Source: Desulfobacteraceae bacterium (lineage in GTDB: Bacteria; Desulfobacterota; Desulfobacteria; Desulfobacterales; SKZT01). From it: a stretch of DNA of 64,000 bases. The notes under the pieces are model-generated. The model searched no databases, was not told the DNA's origin, and worked only from the letters and a program-made list of their open reading frames with translations. This document shows, piece by piece, positions 44,022 to 53,794 of this stretch. A program made the position numbers and the translations under genes. The stretch lies in NCBI GenBank assembly GCA_011389745.1, contig JAABTQ010000014.1, positions 16,266 to 80,265 on the forward strand. The letters run 5' to 3'. Position 1 is the first letter of the stretch. The number at the start of each line of letters is the position of its first letter.

Positions 44022-44522
44022 TCACTCAGGGGAAAGCCGATTGGCGTCAACTCTTACATACATACCACTTTTTCCACCGGATTTTTCCATCAGGCGAATA
44101 TCGGAAATGATCATTGACTTGTCGTAGGATTTGCACATGTCATATATGGTTAAGGCGGCCACCGCAACAGCGGTCAAAGCTTCCATTTCCACGCCGGTTT
44201 GTCCTCTTAACCTCACAGATGCCTGGATACATATGGCATTTTCTTTTTCATCCGGAAAAAAATCCACCGCCACATGGGTGATGTTTAAAGGATGACACAT
44301 GGGAATCAGGCCGGATGTTTTCTTAGCGGCCATAACCCCGGCGATTCTGGCAGTTTCAAGAACATTCCCCTTTTTTATGGACTGATTCTGAATTTTTTCG
44401 AACGTATCAGAATTCATGGCAATTTTTCCCTGAGCCATGGCTTTCCTTTCCGAGAAAGCCTTTTCAGTGACATCCACCATTCTCACCTTACCTTCGCTGT
44501 CGATATGGGTAAAATCGTTCAT
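44022..44522 (-). CDS. moaC: Cyclic pyranopterin monophosphate synthase MoaC
   Basis: 166 aa. Signature segments IPMCHPLNITHV, GQTGVEMEALTAVAVAALTIYDMCK and the KSGGKSG C-terminal motif define MoaC, which with MoaA turns GTP into cPMP in molybdenum cofactor synthesis. AGGAG is 12 bases upstream. moaA is not in the window. It follows moaE by 32 bases. Confidence 0.96.
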   Translation of the reverse strand: MNDFTHIDSEGKVRMVDVTEKAFSERKAMAQGKIAMNSDTFEKIQNQSIKKGNVLETARIAGVMAAKKTSGLIPMCHPLNITHVAVDFFPDEKENAICIQASVRLRGQTGVEMEALTAVAVAALTIYDMCKSYDKSMIISDIRLMEKSGGKSGMYVRVDANRLSPE

Positions 44523-44554
44523 GAACTAATGTGCTCCTGTGTATCAAATTATAT

Positions 44555-44917
44555 TTACTCAGAGAAATACTCGGTTTTTTTAGTGACCGTCGATTTAATT
44601 TCATTCAGGGTATCCTGAAGCACGGAAATCACGTTTTCCCTAACATCACCGGCCACTACTAAATACATCACATCATCTCCAATACGAAGATCTTTGTTTT
44701 CATTGATATGGACCAGAATTTCCAGAATGCCCGGCATTTTTTTATTCGAATCGATAATCCGGTTAAGTTTTTGATGGTCCACAGCAACTCGCAGCCCCGA
44801 TACTTTTCTTCCATCTCTGGATGTGCCTCTGACGACACCGTTATGGCACAGAATCATCCCTGCCTGATGGAAATCGGGATGTTTCCTGATTTGCTCCAAC
44901 AACTTCACAAGAATCAT
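44555..44917 (-). CDS. moaE: MoaE-like molybdopterin synthase large subunit
   Basis: 120 aa. Contains GMILCHNGVVRGTSRDGRKV, close to the HNGxVR region of MoaE, and the tail TLNEIKSTVTKKTEY where MoaE has conserved lysines. Shorter than E. coli MoaE (150 aa), like other SRB versions. It has an AAAGGAGG site and overlaps the mobA stop by ATGA, so translation is coupled to mobA. Confidence 0.85.
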   Translation of the reverse strand: MILVKLLEQIRKHPDFHQAGMILCHNGVVRGTSRDGRKVSGLRVAVDHQKLNRIIDSNKKMPGILEILVHINENKDLRIGDDVMYLVVAGDVRENVISVLQDTLNEIKSTVTKKTEYFSE

Positions 44918-45519
44918 GGTTCCTCCTTTAAAATTTGATCAGCTATTTTCAAATCCTCAGGGGTATTGATGTTAAAAAAGCTCAACAGGTTAGGGTCTTG
45001 TTGCCTCAGCTGGGTTTCCGGTACTGTTTTCATATGAACTTTTTTGAAGAAGTTTCTTATTTTAAAATCCTTTTTTAAAAGATGGTGTTCAATACTTTGA
45101 AAACATCGCCTGGAGTAAATTGCACAAAGTGGCTCAAGCCCATTGGATGTCTCGGGAATAATGACATCCGTATGGTTATCTATTTTATTTAAAAGTATCC
45201 TGACCAGTTTACCTTTCAAAAAGGGGGTATCAGAAGCGGAAAAAAAAACATACGGATTGGATGCGTAAAAAAGGCCGGCATGGAGTCCTGTAAGGGAACT
45301 TCTAACAGGATATAAATCAGTTCCAATTATCAGATCCCAATCTATATATGCAATAGGATTATTGGTCACCAGGATTATTTCGTCAAATAATTCGGTAAAA
45401 ACCTGATAAATACGATCCAGATTTTTTTTCCCACCCACAGGTAAAAACGCTTTAACTTCACCGGAATATCTGGATGCCACACCTCCAGCCAATATAACAC
45501 CGGTACACAATGATTTCAT
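44914..45519 (-). CDS. mobA: Molybdenum cofactor guanylyltransferase MobA
   Basis: 201 aa from the ATG at 45519 (AAGGA 9 bases upstream); the ORF track adds 21 residues without a ribosome site. The nucleotidyltransferase motif reads GVILAGGVASRYSGEVKAFLPVGGK, with SASDTPFL supplying the Mg-binding aspartate. It attaches GMP to molybdopterin to make the bis-MGD cofactor used by formate dehydrogenases and similar enzymes. First gene of a mobA-moaE-moaC minus-strand unit, divergent from pyrR. Confidence 0.88.
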   Translation of the reverse strand: MKSLCTGVILAGGVASRYSGEVKAFLPVGGKKNLDRIYQVFTELFDEIILVTNNPIAYIDWDLIIGTDLYPVRSSLTGLHAGLFYASNPYVFFSASDTPFLKGKLVRILLNKIDNHTDVIIPETSNGLEPLCAIYSRRCFQSIEHHLLKKDFKIRNFFKKVHMKTVPETQLRQQDPNLLSFFNINTPEDLKIADQILKEEP

Positions 45520-45769
45520 GTAAAACAATCCTTGATTTTTTTCAAAAAAATTAAGCATAGGAGAATTCATCATAAAAATCAAGGTAGTTCCTTAAGAACA
45601 GGTCAATCAAAATTCCGGAAAAAAGGGCAAATTTCATATGAGGCTTGATTTTGCCATGATACATAGGGTAGAAATACATTTTGTTCTAACAGTGCCGCTT
45701 GTGGATACATCTTGTTTTAAAAGGGCCATGAGTTGCCGACAGCATTGACACATTCACGAGGAAAATTGC

Positions 45770-46309
45770 ATGAGGTCGTCGGATACTATTTTGGATGCCG
45801 CAGATATTGATCGCATCCTGATCAGAATAAGCCATGAAATTTTGGAAGTTCATAAAGGGGCTGAAAGATTGGCTTTGATAGGGATTCAAACCCGTGGGGT
45901 CTTTCTGGCCAAGCGTCTTCATAAAAAAATCAAGGAAATCGAGGAGGTGGAAATCCCTGTAGGGCAGGTGGATATTACGCTCTATCGGGATGACTGGACC
46001 CGAATCAGCACCAATCCGGTAATTCAGGCAACGGAAATTCCTTTTTCCGTTGATGGCAAAAAAATAATCCTTGTTGATGATGTCCTTTTTACCGGAAGGA
46101 CCATTCGGTGTGCCATGGATGCACTGATTGATTTCGGGCGTCCGGATCGAATAGAACTTGCCGTTCTGGTAGACCGGGGGCACAGAGAACTGCCGATACA
46201 GGGAAATTATGTCGGAAAATTTGTTGAAACCCGGCGGTCCGAAACGGTCAATGTCATGGTGACGGAATACGACGGAGAAGACAGAGTCGTGATTGAAAAG
46301 GAATCGTAA
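45770..46309 (+). CDS. pyrR: PyrR bifunctional regulator/uracil phosphoribosyltransferase
   Basis: 179 aa. The PRPP-binding motif IILVDDVLFTGRT and the ALIGIQTRGVFLAKRL segment are characteristic of PyrR. The family both converts uracil and PRPP to UMP and, in some bacteria, binds pyr leader RNA. No pyr leader structure was seen here. GAGGAAA upstream of the ATG. moaB begins 3 bases after the stop. Confidence 0.93.
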   Translation: MRSSDTILDAADIDRILIRISHEILEVHKGAERLALIGIQTRGVFLAKRLHKKIKEIEEVEIPVGQVDITLYRDDWTRISTNPVIQATEIPFSVDGKKIILVDDVLFTGRTIRCAMDALIDFGRPDRIELAVLVDRGHRELPIQGNYVGKFVETRRSETVNVMVTEYDGEDRVVIEKES

Positions 46310-46312
46310 CCT

Positions 46313-46816
46313 ATGGGTACTCATGAACACAAACAGCATGCCCCCAAAAAGGCAGGTATTTCCATTTTATCCGTTTCCAGTACCCGCAGTCTTGAAAATG
46401 ATGAAAGCGGGCATTGGATTAAAAAAAGCGCAATAGATGCCGGACATGACGTACTGTTTCACCAGGTGGTTAAAGACGATGGCAACGATATCAGAGATAC
46501 GGTTACCCGATGGGTAAATGATCCAAAAATCCAGGTAATTATCCTAACCGGCGGCACAGGAATCGCCCATAAGGATGTCACTATCGAAACGGTCCGGCCT
46601 CTATTTGAAAAGGAGCTTACCGGCTTTTCCATATTATTTGCCCAGTTGAGCTTTAGGGAAATCGGTGCGGCAGCCATGCTATCCCGCGCCACAGGAGGCA
46701 TGATCGGCAATACCAGTGTGTTTTGTATTCCGGGAAGTCTCAATGCCTGTAAGCTCGCCTTCAAAGAACTGATTTTGCCCGAATTGGGCCATTTGATCAA
46801 ACACGCGGTTGAATAA
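46313..46816 (+). CDS. moaB: Molybdopterin biosynthesis protein MoaB/MogA family
   Basis: 167 aa. The core motif is VIILTGGTGIAHKDVTIETVRPLFEKELTGF, with later SRATGGMIGNTSVFCIPGS, the molybdopterin-binding fold; the protein adenylylates molybdopterin or inserts molybdate. It follows pyrR by 3 bases and precedes the giant GlmS-like gene by 32 bases, with the other moa genes divergent. Confidence 0.92.
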   Translation: MGTHEHKQHAPKKAGISILSVSSTRSLENDESGHWIKKSAIDAGHDVLFHQVVKDDGNDIRDTVTRWVNDPKIQVIILTGGTGIAHKDVTIETVRPLFEKELTGFSILFAQLSFREIGAAAMLSRATGGMIGNTSVFCIPGSLNACKLAFKELILPELGHLIKHAVE

Positions 46817-46848: not shown

Positions 46849-49800
46849 ATGTGTGGAATAGTCGGGTATTTCGGTCGTGCGGCAAATAGTCTGACACGGG
46901 TGCTGACAGCCATGTCGGCGATTATCTATCGTGCTCCTGACAGTACTGGAATTGGTATTTTCGGAGATGAAAACGAACCTGTCCGCGCCAGAAAAGCAAC
47001 CGGCTCGGTCATTCAATTGGTGGATGTTCTCCTGAAAAATCCGCTCTATCCCAATTTGCCCCAGGAGCTGATGGGTTTTTTTGACTCTATGGCGGACAAA
47101 TCATACCTGGAAGAGCGTCAGCTCAGGTTGCTTATTTTTGAGGGCCTTCCCACGAATTATTTTCTTGATCTTAAAAAAGGGAAAATGGCCTACCCCTTAT
47201 TCAGCGAACTGATCGACGTGGACAACCCTGATCCCCGTCGAATTGCTCCCGGATGGCCCGGACGATCAAATCCTTTGCCATCGCCGGTTATTGAATCGCG
47301 GGAAGACCTTCGGCAAGTGGTTTTAAAACTCATTCAAGACTATGATCTTTCCACCGTCGTGATTAAATCTTTTATCAGAAATGCCTTGTCCGGCACCATT
47401 GAAAGACGCCGGAAAGAAGGATATCTCGAAGTGGAATCCTCTGATATTCTGACAGCATTTGATCAGGTTTACGAAGAAATTCTATCCGAGGAAAAAGTGC
47501 CACAAACGGCGGACTTTGAATTGGAATTATTCTGGGAAACACAAAAAGCATCGGAATATTTGTGGCGATTTCTGCGAACCAGCAGGATAAAAATCCCCAT
47601 AGATTACGATACGGACGGAGTACGAGGTATTTTTCGCTTATTGGATGGGGTGTTGATGAGTCGTTTGCCAATGCGGCCCCACCTGGGAGAAGCCTTGCAG
47701 CATCAATTGGAGACTCTCTGGCCTCAGGCCGAAAAAATTTTTCCTCTGAATTGGAAGACCCTTTATTTTGCTGAAAAAGGCGCCAACCTCTATGGATGGG
47801 CAGCTGCAGCAGCCCTGATATTTTTGGAAAAGGAATTGAGAGGCTTTTCCGAAACCATCAATACCGGCTCAAAAGAAACACAAATGGGCTATTATGTTAT
47901 CCCCGGAAAAACCCATCCGACGGTCCTGTCGGGTCTTCTGCCCCCGATCGTATCCCAGGGGCGCTGGGCACTTCAATCCGCAGTCACCGCCAAAAATTCC
48001 CACCCCTTTTTCGACACTCATTTTCAACGAATCATCGTTTTAAACGGCCAGTTTAATACCAATGTCGAATCCGATGTCCGTTCATTTCTGGAAAAAGTGG
48101 CCAATTATTCTTTCAGAAGTGAAAATTCTTCGGAATATTTCGCCCTGCTCTGGGGATATTACTTCAAGCGCCTCAGCGAAGAAAAAAAGCGATTTATAAG
48201 TATCCGAACCCAGATCGAAACCGGTCTTGAAACCTACGATATCGGAAGCCAGTCTGTCGATTATCAGATCTTTCATCGGTTAAGAGGAAAATCTCAGGAG
48301 CAGATTGATGAACTGGCATTTATTGAAACTGCCAGAAAGTTGACCCGGGGCGGAGGCCAGATCGCTGTATCCGGACTCAGTTTGCATTCTACCCGCAAAC
48401 TGCTCGTGGCGAGCCATAACCGTCCTGTTTTTATCGTTCGCAGAATTGAAACCCAAGATGTCATGGTTGTGTCGGATATTAACGCGGCCATGGGACTTTT
48501 TCCCCAGAAACTGATCAGTGAGGTCACACAAAAATTAAAATCTATCGGGTTAAAACATCTTGAATTATTGGATGAGCTCAACAGGCAAAATGCCCCGAAG
48601 AATTTCAAGCATGCCGAAATTCACAGATACAGGGAAGAAGAAAATTCGCTGTTAAAAAATTTTGCCGTCGAAGTTTATCCCCTGGATGGCAAGGAACTGT
48701 TTGCCGGAATTTCCGGTTCAATTGAAAACAATCAGTTAAAAAGAACCATTTACATCACCGATTTTGACGGAAATCCCATCCCGGATATCGAGCCTTTTGA
48801 GACCATTCTGAGTCCGCCGCAAATTCAAAAAGATTTTTATACGTCCTTTTACGAGACCCATTTGAATGAGATTCCGGATCGCCTGTCGGAAATAATCAGT
48901 TATTATATGCCGGATTCACAAGATCTTCCCCGATTGAACATCAAGACAGGACTTCTTCAGCGTCGATTCGGCCATAATTTCAACGGGCTGAAACGCATTG
49001 TGATGGTTGGGATGGGAAGTGCCAACAATATGAATCTTGCGGCACGTTTTTTTATCCGGAACATCTTACCCCAAATGGATGTAGTGGTTATAAGGCCCGT
49101 GGAAATCGAAAACCTGTTTAAAGTTATCTCTCCGGAAAAAGACCTGGTGATTCTCAGCAGCTGGTCCGGCACTACCGCCGATATCGTGCAATTTGCAAAT
49201 CATTTGAATTCTCACAATATACCTTTTTTGGCAGTTACCGAGAAATTGTTTTCCGATCTGGGCCTTATTGCCGAAAGAAGCGGGGGTGTTTTATCCACCC
49301 TGAGCGGTGAGGAAGTCACCGTATCAGGAATAAAAAGCACCTTGTGCATGTTGTTTTGCCTCTGTCTTTTTGCTGTCTGGCTATGTTCACGCATATCCGG
49401 TGAAAAAAAAGCATCCGAGTCTATGGCACAACTTCGCGAAATTCCCGATATTCTGTCCCAATTGCTCAAAGACGAAAAGGTAAAGAAGTTCTGCGAACGG
49501 ATATCCTCTGAAAGCGCTCAAAGTTGCGCCAATTTTGTCATCGATGCCCTCAACACCACTGGTGTAGGGTATGAAGCCGCCTCCAAGCTGGAAGAGTGCA
49601 GCTGGTCTTCCATAGGCAAACCTCTTGATTATAATGACCTGTATATCCAGTGCCTGAGGAAAGATTTGGAGTATAATCTAATCCTGATGATTACAACTTA
49701 CAAACCAAGACTTTCCGAAGCCATAACCATTATGAAGAGGTTATACCTCGAAAAAATCCCTTTTGCAGCGGTCTGCACATCCATCAGGGAATTGGCAAAA

Positions 49801-51411
49801 GTGGAAATGTTTTCCCAAAACCGATGTATCTGTTTACCCTCGGCAGATCCGCCATTGCAACCCTTTGTTGATTTTGTATTTTTCTATATGCTTTCTTTCC
49901 ATTACGGTCGCGCCCATGGACGGTCCTCTGATTTTCCCAGAAACCGCGCCAAGTCTGTTACTGCGGGAAGAAACCTGCTAAGTGAGCCGGCATCCAATGC
50001 AAAAGAGTTCCATCAACTGGATTTCAAAGCCCGGGGAATCCGGCTTGAGCAAAACGTATCCGATGAATGGCTTTCCCAGGAAACCATTTGGGAAACAACA
50101 GCTGAAACTTATTGGGAAAAAAACTATTTCAGACAAATGCGCCAACTGATCCGGATCATTCAGGACCAGAATGCCATCGAGTGTTTGGTGCATACTCCCA
50201 TGGAAAATAAGTTTGATCATATGATCCGGCATCTGTCAAACGCACTTGCCGAAGAAAGGGAAATTATATTTCTGTCATTTGACAGGCCCGCCAATGCCGC
50301 AGCAAAAAACCTGGCTGTACAACTCAACCGTCTGCTTTCAAGCTCTTTCAGGGCTGCAAGCCCTCTGGATCCCATGAAAAGTTTTTCTGATCACTCCCTG
50401 ATCTTTTTGCTCGATTCAAGATCCCATGATATTGCTTCCATTGAAACAATCAGCGAGAACCTGCCGTCCGGGTGCATTTATGTCGGTCCTGAATCTGATA
50501 TATCCAGCCTGAACAATCCCCAAGGATGCTGTTTTTTCAAAGAGCCCTTTGCTTTTTGTGAAAGTGATCTGCTTTATATAACGGTATTTTTGCTGTTCAC
50601 TGAAGCGATCCGTAGGCTGGCACCTTCCAGAGCGGAAATCCTTAAAAAACTTATGAAGAAAGGTTGCCTGGGTCTGAGAAATATCATGGAAAACATGGCC
50701 TTAAAAAATGCGATAAACGATTCCATTGTATCTAACTCAGGATATCTGTCGTCATTTCTTATCGGCCCCACCGGAGGTATCGGCGATTTATGGACCGATC
50801 GTTTTGACCAGTTTTCGAGAATGATTCTTCAAAGCTACTATTATGGTGAGAGCGCCCATGGCCCCCTGGTGACCATAGATCCTAAAGTATGTGACAAATA
50901 TGTGCGGCTGGGGCCCAGAAACACAATGGTTCCCCTCTATGGAGAAGAGAAAGTCGATGAATGGGAAAAGCGATATCTGAACGGACGAAGCACGGATGTT
51001 TTTTTAAACCAGTCTCCCAATTATCTTTTTTATCAGGTTGAAACCCCGTTTTTTGCCGATGGAAACTGGTATTTTCCGGTATTGAGGAAAGACTATGATA
51101 CCATAGAAGACAATCTGGTTATCCTGGATGCCACCAGCGAAAGATATCTTGCGCACGCCCAGGATGAAATGTCCACATTCGGTGCCCGCTATGCAAGGAT
51201 GGTGGTTATTTCCCAGGAAGCTTTTTTCGGAGCGGAACAAAAAATTTCTCTTTTTAAATATCCAATCAGTCATATGCTGCTTTTACCCCCGCTTTTCGAG
51301 GATAATAAAACCATGATTCCCATTCCGGATTTGATTTTGCCCATTGCCATGAGCATGATTTCGATGGCCATGACCGGAGCCACTCAAAAACTGATCAATG
51401 GGCGGAGTTAA
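46849..51411 (+). CDS. Giant GlmS-like protein: N-terminal nucleophile glutaminase domain plus SIS domains, 1,520 aa
   Basis: GlmS is about 610 aa; this protein is 2.5 times longer. The start is MCGIVGYFG, so Cys2 would be the N-terminal nucleophile, followed by IYRAPDSTGIGIFGD (GlmS EYRGYDSAG). A 300-residue insertion separates this from GRWALQSAVTAKNSHPF (about 372; GlmS RWATHG) and LNGQFNTN (about 398; HNGIIEN). A first SIS domain is at 710-860 (VMVGMGSANNM, SSWSGTTAD at 768), a second-like region at 900-1,000, and GESAHGPLVTID near 1,333 recalls GlmS ELKHGPLALID. Gln-binding residues T76/H77 and D123 of GlmS look replaced (LQS, SENSSEY). It probably acts on a sugar phosphate, but product and glutaminase activity are unproven. 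Confidence 0.72.
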   Translation: MCGIVGYFGRAANSLTRVLTAMSAIIYRAPDSTGIGIFGDENEPVRARKATGSVIQLVDVLLKNPLYPNLPQELMGFFDSMADKSYLEERQLRLLIFEGLPTNYFLDLKKGKMAYPLFSELIDVDNPDPRRIAPGWPGRSNPLPSPVIESREDLRQVVLKLIQDYDLSTVVIKSFIRNALSGTIERRRKEGYLEVESSDILTAFDQVYEEILSEEKVPQTADFELELFWETQKASEYLWRFLRTSRIKIPIDYDTDGVRGIFRLLDGVLMSRLPMRPHLGEALQHQLETLWPQAEKIFPLNWKTLYFAEKGANLYGWAAAAALIFLEKELRGFSETINTGSKETQMGYYVIPGKTHPTVLSGLLPPIVSQGRWALQSAVTAKNSHPFFDTHFQRIIVLNGQFNTNVESDVRSFLEKVANYSFRSENSSEYFALLWGYYFKRLSEEKKRFISIRTQIETGLETYDIGSQSVDYQIFHRLRGKSQEQIDELAFIETARKLTRGGGQIAVSGLSLHSTRKLLVASHNRPVFIVRRIETQDVMVVSDINAAMGLFPQKLISEVTQKLKSIGLKHLELLDELNRQNAPKNFKHAEIHRYREEENSLLKNFAVEVYPLDGKELFAGISGSIENNQLKRTIYITDFDGNPIPDIEPFETILSPPQIQKDFYTSFYETHLNEIPDRLSEIISYYMPDSQDLPRLNIKTGLLQRRFGHNFNGLKRIVMVGMGSANNMNLAARFFIRNILPQMDVVVIRPVEIENLFKVISPEKDLVILSSWSGTTADIVQFANHLNSHNIPFLAVTEKLFSDLGLIAERSGGVLSTLSGEEVTVSGIKSTLCMLFCLCLFAVWLCSRISGEKKASESMAQLREIPDILSQLLKDEKVKKFCERISSESAQSCANFVIDALNTTGVGYEAASKLEECSWSSIGKPLDYNDLYIQCLRKDLEYNLILMITTYKPRLSEAITIMKRLYLEKIPFAAVCTSIRELAKVEMFSQNRCICLPSADPPLQPFVDFVFFYMLSFHYGRAHGRSSDFPRNRAKSVTAGRNLLSEPASNAKEFHQLDFKARGIRLEQNVSDEWLSQETIWETTAETYWEKNYFRQMRQLIRIIQDQNAIECLVHTPMENKFDHMIRHLSNALAEEREIIFLSFDRPANAAAKNLAVQLNRLLSSSFRAASPLDPMKSFSDHSLIFLLDSRSHDIASIETISENLPSGCIYVGPESDISSLNNPQGCCFFKEPFAFCESDLLYITVFLLFTEAIRRLAPSRAEILKKLMKKGCLGLRNIMENMALKNAINDSIVSNSGYLSSFLIGPTGGIGDLWTDRFDQFSRMILQSYYYGESAHGPLVTIDPKVCDKYVRLGPRNTMVPLYGEEKVDEWEKRYLNGRSTDVFLNQSPNYLFYQVETPFFADGNWYFPVLRKDYDTIEDNLVILDATSERYLAHAQDEMSTFGARYARMVVISQEAFFGAEQKISLFKYPISHMLLLPPLFEDNKTMIPIPDLILPIAMSMISMAMTGATQKLINGRS

Positions 51412-51426
51412 TATCAAAAAAAGCAC

Positions 51427-52110
51427 ATGACTTCCGACAACATCATTATCAGCCCAAAGCCGCAAGACTTGGCCGTAACAATTAAACAGGTGGCCCGGTA
51501 TACGGGGGGAAGCCGTTATCGGATGGATGCCGATATGGAAAAAATGGCTGTCTCGGTTTTGGAAGAGGCCATAAATCTGATTGATCCTGCGTTGGTATAT
51601 TCCGTTCATGAAATATCCCAACTGCATAATGATATACGCACCGGACTTTTTTTGCCTGAAAATACAGAAGAAGCCCCGAAAATCGCCGGTTGTATCTGTA
51701 CATTAGGACCAAAACTTGAGACTTCAGTCAGTGAGGCAATGCAAACCGGTGACGGTCTTCGAGGGGTGCTTTTAGATGCGGCAGGTGTAGGGTTGCTGGA
51801 GTCTTTAGGAAATTTATCATTTGCCCATATCCGCGATAAGGCCCGAAAATACGATTTGTATGCCGGTTGCCGTTCGGGTCCCGGTTACAACCATGTGCCC
51901 ATGGAGGCTCAAATTCATTTGTTTTCAATGGTGGATTCAACAGGTATCGGAGTATTCCTGAGGAATTCTTTGGTCATGAGTCCGGCAAAATCATTGTCGT
52001 TTTTTGTGGTTTTTTACAAAAAACCTCATGCGGAATCCGATGCTTACAAATGCCGTACCTGTGACCTGACGGATTGCTCTTATCGAATCGGCAATAAAGT
52101 AAAAAAATAA
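51427..52110 (+). CDS. Protein related to the cobalamin-dependent methionine synthase activation domain
   Basis: 227 aa. The stretch SGPGYNHVPMEAQIHLFSMVDSTGIGVFL matches the SPGYP...E..KLF.LLD...IG.. region of the MetH reactivation domain, which binds AdoMet and re-methylates cob(II)alamin. The N-terminal half (DAAGVGLLESLG) also fits stand-alone activation proteins. C-terminal CRTCDLTDCSYR could bind a metal or cluster. It lies 15 bases after the giant gene and 40 bases before the RACo-like gene, as in corrinoid-enzyme activation pairs. Confidence 0.75.
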   Translation: MTSDNIIISPKPQDLAVTIKQVARYTGGSRYRMDADMEKMAVSVLEEAINLIDPALVYSVHEISQLHNDIRTGLFLPENTEEAPKIAGCICTLGPKLETSVSEAMQTGDGLRGVLLDAAGVGLLESLGNLSFAHIRDKARKYDLYAGCRSGPGYNHVPMEAQIHLFSMVDSTGIGVFLRNSLVMSPAKSLSFFVVFYKKPHAESDAYKCRTCDLTDCSYRIGNKVKK

Positions 52111-52150: not shown

Positions 52151-53794
52151 ATGACCAAAAAGGATGAATTTACAATATTCCTCCATGATAATCCGATTAA
52201 GGTAAAAAAGGGCCAAAGCCTGATGCATGCCCTGTTGGAAAAAGGCATCTTTTTGAGGGCTGATTGCGGCGGCAGCGGGCGATGTGCAAAATGCAGCGTC
52301 AAAATTATTCAGGATCTTCCGGAATCAAAAAAGCTTTTGGAAAGTAAAGATGAGAGCACCGAAAGCACAAGGTTCAATTACCGGAATGTCCTGGCATGTC
52401 AGGAAACAGTTACTGAAAATCTTGTGATCGAAATTCCCCAATCGGTAAACTTAAGCCCTGATGCCATTCAAAAACCAAGGATTTCCCATAAGCTCAACTC
52501 CCGTATATCCGGTATTTTAACAGGTGAGCATTCGACTTCCGGACATTGTCTGGCAGTAGACCTCGGAACCACAACCATTGCCATTTATCTCTGCAATTTG
52601 GAAAATGCATCCATTGATGGTTCGGTTTCCCTGAAAAATCCGCAATTCCTTTTCGGTACCGATGTCATGAGCCGAATCACAGCCTTGTCTGAAAATCCGA
52701 TGATTTTAGGACGACTCCAGAAGGTTGTGGTCCAGGCCATTGACTTGGGAATCCGTAACCTGTGTCTTTCCAGAAATGAAATCGATCCAAAAAGTATCAG
52801 GCGCATGGCAGTGGTGGGAAATTCAGTCATGCTTCACCTGTTTCTCGGAAAAGATCCCTCTAGTATCGGAGTGGCACCTTATGAGCCAAAATTTTATGAA
52901 ACTCAAATGGTTTCTGCAGGTCGGCTTGGATTCAATTTCAATCATAACACTGAAATTTTTACAATTCCTTTAATATCCGGGTTTTTAGGAGCCGACATTG
53001 TGGCTGCATCCCTGGCCGTGGACCTGAAAGAACAACCGTTCGGCACTGTCCTGGCCGATGTGGGCACCAATGGAGAATTGATGGCGGTCGGATCGGAATC
53101 AATGATAGCCACGTCGTGCGCCACGGGCCCTGCATTGGAAGGCGCCGCTATCGAGCATGGCATGCAGGCGGTCTCCGGAGCCATATCTGCGGTGTCGATA
53201 GATATGACTTCCGGCAGGGTCAAATACATGGTTAAAGGAAGCCGAAAACCGCGAGGAATTTGTGGGTCCGGAATCATCAGCGCCGTGGCGGAGCTGCTTA
53301 GAGCAAAAATACTGCTTCCTGACGGACGATTTGACCCATTCTCCGGATATGACCGGATTCGGTTAAATCATAAAAATATCCCTGAGTTTGTACTGGTTTC
53401 TGAAAACGAATCCGGTACCGGAAAAGTCATCACACTCACCCAGGCGGACATTCGAAATGTGCAGCTTGCCAAAGGCGCGTTTCGTACCGGAATTGACCTT
53501 CTGTGTGAAAAAATCGGCTTGGCTGTTCCCCGCCGATTGCTTGTGGCCGGTGCCTTCGGAAACTATATCCGAAAACAGGATGCTTTGGCTATCGGCATGT
53601 TTCCCCCAATGTCGGAAAAAAATATCCGTATTGTCGGAAATGCCGCCGGAGAAGGTGCAATTCTCTCACTTTTCGATACGCAAAGCCTTATGCAAGCCCA
53701 TGATCTCGCCAATTCTACCCAGGTAATCGATCTGGCCTCCCACAAAAATTTTCAGGATCATTTTGTTGATTCGTTGTCGTTTCCGGAATCCTGA
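52151..53794 (+). CDS. RACo-like corrinoid reductive activator (2Fe-2S plus ASKHA ATPase, DUF4445)
   Basis: 547 aa. The N-terminus is a [2Fe-2S] ferredoxin (CGGSGRCAKC with a distal ACQ); the rest is the ASKHA ATPase fold, with VDLGTTTIAIYL as phosphate-1 motif, ADVGTNGELM and CATGPALEGAAIEHGM. RACo/RamA proteins use ATP to reduce Co(II) corrinoids for methyl transfer. It probably acts with the preceding MetH-activation-like protein. No corrinoid protein or methyltransferase is in the window. Confidence 0.88.
   Translation: MTKKDEFTIFLHDNPIKVKKGQSLMHALLEKGIFLRADCGGSGRCAKCSVKIIQDLPESKKLLESKDESTESTRFNYRNVLACQETVTENLVIEIPQSVNLSPDAIQKPRISHKLNSRISGILTGEHSTSGHCLAVDLGTTTIAIYLCNLENASIDGSVSLKNPQFLFGTDVMSRITALSENPMILGRLQKVVVQAIDLGIRNLCLSRNEIDPKSIRRMAVVGNSVMLHLFLGKDPSSIGVAPYEPKFYETQMVSAGRLGFNFNHNTEIFTIPLISGFLGADIVAASLAVDLKEQPFGTVLADVGTNGELMAVGSESMIATSCATGPALEGAAIEHGMQAVSGAISAVSIDMTSGRVKYMVKGSRKPRGICGSGIISAVAELLRAKILLPDGRFDPFSGYDRIRLNHKNIPEFVLVSENESGTGKVITLTQADIRNVQLAKGAFRTGIDLLCEKIGLAVPRRLLVAGAFGNYIRKQDALAIGMFPPMSEKNIRIVGNAAGEGAILSLFDTQSLMQAHDLANSTQVIDLASHKNFQDHFVDSLSFPES

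Follow-up and report, generated by a model that had tools for sequence, protein, structure and literature searches.

Class II amidotransferases of the PurF, AsnB and MgsA/GlxB types retain an Asp that binds the amino group of glutamine, and in glucosamine-6-phosphate synthase (GlmS) this amino group is bound by Asp123. The active site of GFAT-1 takes Lys558, Glu561 and Lys676 from one subunit and His577 from the other monomer (PMC7000685), and a review names Glu488, His504 and Lys603 for E. coli GlmS (PMC9272926). Here, we describe a GlmS-derived protein of 1520 aa that is probably not a broken GlmS but a new, specialised amide/sugar-phosphate enzyme. No paper describing such a protein was found in the open-access literature.

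A giant protein with a split glutaminase domain and two SIS pairs

The gene lies in a window of 64,000 nucleotides (the whole stretch of DNA that was analysed), starts with ATG at 46849 and ends with a stop codon at 51411. The features of the locus are as follows.

46313..46816, + strand: MoaB-like protein, the upstream gene and a genus-specific neighbour (TIGR02667 E=3.7e-49, below cut-off; PF00994 above cut-off)
46849..51411, + strand: giant GlmS-like protein, 1520 aa (ORF list; full-length homologues)
46849..47070, + strand: glutaminase domain, first part, residues 1-74, with the Cys2 nucleophile and the Arg28 loop YRAPDSTG (hhalign to the GlmS N-terminus, P=1.3e-15)
47071..47946, + strand: all-helical insertion, residues 75-366, ~290 residues (AF2 model)
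47947..48768, + strand: glutaminase domain, second part, residues 367-640 (profile-alignment residue map, conservation)
48826..49968, + strand: SIS1-SIS2 isomerase pair, residues 660-1040 (hhalign to the GlmS isomerase, P=6e-33; Foldseek TM 0.85-0.89)
50086..51408, + strand: SIS3-SIS4, a degenerate second pair, residues 1080-1520, carrying GESAHGP and His1337 (hhalign to the GlmS isomerase, P=4e-7)
51427..52110, + strand: MetH activation-domain-like protein, 15 bp downstream of the giant ORF (PF02965 E=3.9e-5, just below cut-off)
52151..53794, + strand: RACo-type corrinoid reductive activator (PF14574 E=5.9e-75)

The ORF list bears out the coordinates, the length of 1520 aa, the N-terminus MCGIVGYFG and the motifs RWALQS and SENSSEY given in a preliminary description, and its view that the protein derives from GlmS and is ~2.5 times longer is supported. 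The NCBIfam GlmS scores are far below cut-off: the equivalog TIGR01135 reaches 113.7 bits (curated cut-off 418) and a second GlmS model 131 bits (cut-off 381). Pfam SIS is a sub-threshold match (19.4 versus 25 bits), and the last 480 residues gave no match of note in the Pfam and NCBIfam libraries. In a sequence comparison with proteins of solved structure, human GFAT-1 and further enzymes of the GlmS type came out closest. A conserved and widespread giant protein goes unnamed by any current curated family model.

The AF2 model of residues 1-1050 (pLDDT 82.6, pTM 0.68) predicts an insertion-split Ntn domain followed by a SIS pair, and among solved structures it most resembles full-length GFAT (TMt 0.67-0.72) and GlmS (TMt up to 0.78). 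With its N-terminal Cys directly after Met, the modelled Ntn domain has the fold of class II glutamine amidotransferases. As previously described, an insertion splits this domain; in the model it consists of helices only and lies between strands 45-51 and 367-372, and hhalign found no homology signal between it and GlmS (P=0.36). The second glutaminase part carries RWALQS at 372-377, N383-x-H385-P, the N399-G400 oxyanion hole and SENSSEY at 424-430.

The model of residues 600-1520 (pLDDT 86.2, pTM 0.87) shows four successive Rossmann-type units. SIS1-2 of this model matches solved GlmS isomerase domains with Foldseek TM scores of 0.85-0.89. Foldseek gave one alignment per target chain, and SIS3-4 was assigned by profile alignment and by the strand-helix order in the model; four unrelated controls for this hhalign match gave P>=0.16. 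Both pairs are members of the SIS superfamily, SIS1-2 by Foldseek and SIS3-4 by profile alignment. The direct alignment of SIS1-2 with SIS3-4 is weak (P=8e-5, prob 62%). The preliminary description recognised the GlmS SIS folds and missed this second, degenerate pair (~1080-1520), which accounts for the greater part of the added length once the insertion is set aside.

Distribution of the family

Relatives, mostly full length, share 33-72% identity with the 1520-aa protein, and an assembly or frameshift artefact can therefore be dismissed. The family occurs across marine sulfate-reducer-type bacteria, being present in 54 of the 390 genomes sampled from the class and in 34 of 148 genera; a search of genome contigs also identified a member in each of two Spirochaetota bins. 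Members of 1745-1873 aa (L017, L020, L022, L023, L026, L033 and L037) have a further C-terminal extension of ~300 residues. Conservation was assessed on an alignment of 45 full-length proteins, one of which is truncated.

An altered but invariant glutaminase-domain site

The catalytic residues of the GlmS glutaminase site are all present. Cys2 is identical, and GlmS Arg73, Trp74, His86 and Asn98-Gly99 correspond in the profile alignment to Arg372, Trp373, His385 and Asn399-Gly400, each of them invariant among the 45 sequences; Cys2 and the Arg28 loop are invariant in 44 of the 45, the remaining one being the truncated sequence. The glutamine pocket differs, as had been noticed from the motifs: Thr72, Thr76, His77 and Asp123 of GlmS are replaced by Gly371, Leu375, Gln376 and Ser427. 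Asn426 and Ser427 occupy the region of Asp123, and these two residues and Gln376 are the same in 45/45 sequences. Since the replacement residues are held constant, we read the site as one of changed specificity, and neither a decayed pseudogene nor the degraded-looking glutamine site of the preliminary description fits this pattern. The Ntn site likely acts on a different amide, or holds glutamine differently.

The isomerase site and its missing histidine

By profile alignment, SIS1-2 retains the phosphate loop (S347, S349 and T352 of GlmS as S771, S773 and T776) and the residues equivalent to K485, E488, K603 and T606 (K913, E916, K1035 and T1038). The His504 column, in contrast to the GlmS arrangement in which the same SIS pair donates this residue across a homodimer, is occupied by Ile933 in SIS2 and by His1337 in SIS4. 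His1337 is the sole His504 equivalent and lies within GESAHGPLVTID, aligned against GELKHGPLALID. SIS3-4 itself has neither a phosphate loop nor the C-terminal Lys. Because SIS1-2 lacks the catalytic His while SIS4 carries GESAHGP with His1337, we read the protein as a single-chain pseudo-dimer, in which His1337 would point into the SIS1-2 site.

K913, E916 and H1337 co-occur in most sequences and are jointly replaced in the 14 sequences of clade B, where Lys913 becomes Asn, Glu916 becomes Leu, Ile or Val, and His1337 becomes Tyr. Clade B retains the phosphate loop, Lys1035, Cys2, Arg28 and Asn399-Gly400. It forms a single group on the tree (100% support); the joint loss is thus a single event, and as evidence of coevolution it is weak and suggestive only. 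The gene context is kept in clade B although the isomerase residues are lost, and isomerase chemistry is therefore not essential everywhere.

Association with corrinoid-dependent methyltransferases

Genes for an MttB-type methyltransferase, a corrinoid protein, an MtrH-like protein or RACo occur in 21 of 30 loci, each from a different genome, as opposed to 2 of the 20 stretches that served as controls in these genomes (Fisher p=3e-5), and MttB is encoded in 50/54 genomes with the family versus 157/336 without it (p=3e-11); both sets of counts are phylogenetically non-independent and uncorrected for relatedness. Neighbours were identified by NCBIfam, Pfam and PDB searches, and those that recur are MttB, corrinoid proteins, betaine transporters and MmgE/PrpD. 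In 14 loci the gene directly upstream on the same strand (gap <150 bp) encodes MmgE/PrpD; in 7 it encodes MttB, and in 4 a betaine-binding protein. The neighbouring MttB is closest to the solved glycine betaine methyltransferase, and the MmgE/PrpD to cis-aconitate decarboxylase and IDS-epimerase. Two MttB genes flank the giant gene in both Spirochaetota bins. No MttB gene adjoins the 1520-aa gene in the present window.

In the clade with Tyr1337 (L118-L126 and similar loci), the opposite strand after the gene often carries a recurrent set that encodes another MttB, a MarR-type regulator and an uncharacterised SAM methyltransferase-like protein of 253 aa. Elsewhere in the present genome (contig C1, L174:8533-10197), an asparagine-synthetase-like class II amidotransferase of 554 aa is encoded inside a gene run that also encodes a corrinoid protein and three MttB-like proteins; this is the second connection between an amidotransferase and MttB genes in this organism.

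The preliminary description placed the gene in a run with moaB and corrinoid-activation genes that fits no known GlmS role. The neighbours were correctly named and the context is non-standard for GlmS, but moaB is a neighbour within the genus only. Directly upstream (44022-46816) are moaC-like, small unknown, mobA-like, pyrR and moaB-like genes, and this molybdenum-cofactor group is kept beside the giant gene in the same genus only. A role in molybdenum cofactor synthesis was rejected on these grounds.

Proposed function and alternatives

The domain layout, residue equivalences, conservation and gene association come from computation; the catalytic activity is what we infer from them. We see about even chances that the protein is a GlmS-derived pseudo-dimer in a single chain, with one composite sugar-phosphate site and an amidase site of altered specificity, serving quaternary-amine catabolism. 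It could have arisen when a second isomerase half was fused in tandem to GlmS. The N-terminal Cys2 site would hydrolyse an amide, which may be glutamine in a different binding mode or some other amide. Ammonia or an amine would then pass via a putative GlmS-like passage to a single sugar-phosphate site formed by SIS1-2 (the S771-S773-T776 phosphate loop, K913, E916 and K1035). His1337 of SIS4 would complete this site in cis, replacing the His that GlmS receives from its partner subunit. The enzyme may support cells in importing quaternary amines of the glycine-betaine type and demethylating them by the corrinoid-dependent route. As a tentative extension, this could be a family of single-chain, pseudo-dimeric amidotransferases: one half would supply essentially one catalytic residue, and the Ntn site would have been retuned from glutamine to another amide, for example a methylated or quaternary one, in what would be an undescribed step of anaerobic quaternary-amine degradation. 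If the main reading is right, the homodimer's cross-subunit histidine has been made covalent and asymmetric, providing a clear natural test of active-site sharing by GlmS subunits, and the corrinoid-dependent consumption of betaines by sediment bacteria gains an unexpected enzyme.

Alternatively, the protein could be a non-catalytic sensor or scaffold whose glutaminase and SIS folds bind an amide or amino acid and a sugar phosphate, thereby regulating the methyltransferase operon or its enzymes. SIS domains are often sensors, RpiR-type regulators are encoded near the giant gene in several loci, and clade B keeps the gene context without the isomerase residues. We nevertheless consider this rather unlikely, given the invariance of Cys2, Arg28, Asn399-Gly400 and Lys1035, clade B included, and given that Pfam and NCBIfam detect no DNA-binding domain above cut-off in the giant protein. 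Of the two options raised in the preliminary description, a new sugar-phosphate enzyme or a regulator derived from GlmS, the origin from GlmS holds and the regulator has become the less likely.

SIS deglycases are relatives of GlmS, and a cleavage of the kind catalysed by FrlB-type SIS enzymes would fit the replaced Gln-specific residues and the adjoining betaine-type uptake and MttB genes: the protein would split a sugar-phosphate adduct of an amine, freeing the amine for the methyltransferases, while its Ntn domain would attack an amide bond in that substrate. However, neither a kinase nor a sugar-uptake gene recurs among the identified neighbour clusters, and no substrate of this kind is known, which makes such a deglycase improbable.

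It is scarcely credible that the giant protein is merely the organism's own glucosamine-6-phosphate synthase, enlarged, even though its domain order is GlmS-like overall and no canonical 609-aa GlmS above cut-off was found in this genome, because the genome encodes a separate GlmS-like protein of 1262 aa (contig C26, L173:5724-9512) that retains the equivalents of Asp123, Lys485, Glu488 and His504 and whose kind is far more broadly distributed. Among 58 genomes (this one and its relatives), a sub-threshold match of the 1262-aa type occurs in 53, the 1520-aa family in only 10 and a canonical GlmS in one. The 1262-aa protein, which has an internal insertion and a C-terminal extension, is likely the housekeeping GlmS, and this long form seems to replace the canonical one in nearly the whole order.

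Comparison with known systems

Like GlmS/GFAT (TIGR01135; PDB 1jxa, 2j6h, 6r4e), the proposed pseudo-dimeric enzyme has an Ntn glutaminase with Cys2 ahead of a double SIS isomerase, and it retains the AKSVT motif at the C-terminus and most of the catalytic residues. It differs from them in being 2.5 times longer, with a ~290-residue helical insertion and an extra SIS pair, in having Gly/Leu/Gln/Ser for Thr72/Thr76/His77/Asp123, and in carrying the catalytic His in the extra pair only. Like the giant protein, the 1262-aa GlmS is long, GlmS-derived and found in the same genomes, and it possibly shares a faint C-terminal similarity with the ~300-residue extension of the 1745-1873-aa members (P=0.0016). 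Unlike the giant protein, it keeps Asp123, has the His504 equivalent in its own SIS2, carries other insertions and has a housekeeping distribution; no second SIS pair was detected in it (hhalign to SIS3-4, P=0.41). Lmo0035 (2aml), a solved SIS-pair protein, has the double SIS fold but lacks both the glutaminase and the second SIS pair. The N-terminal Cys, Arg loop and Asn-Gly oxyanion hole are common to the class II amidotransferases PurF, AsnB and MgsA/GlxB, whereas the giant family has an invariant Ser427 at the position of their Asp.
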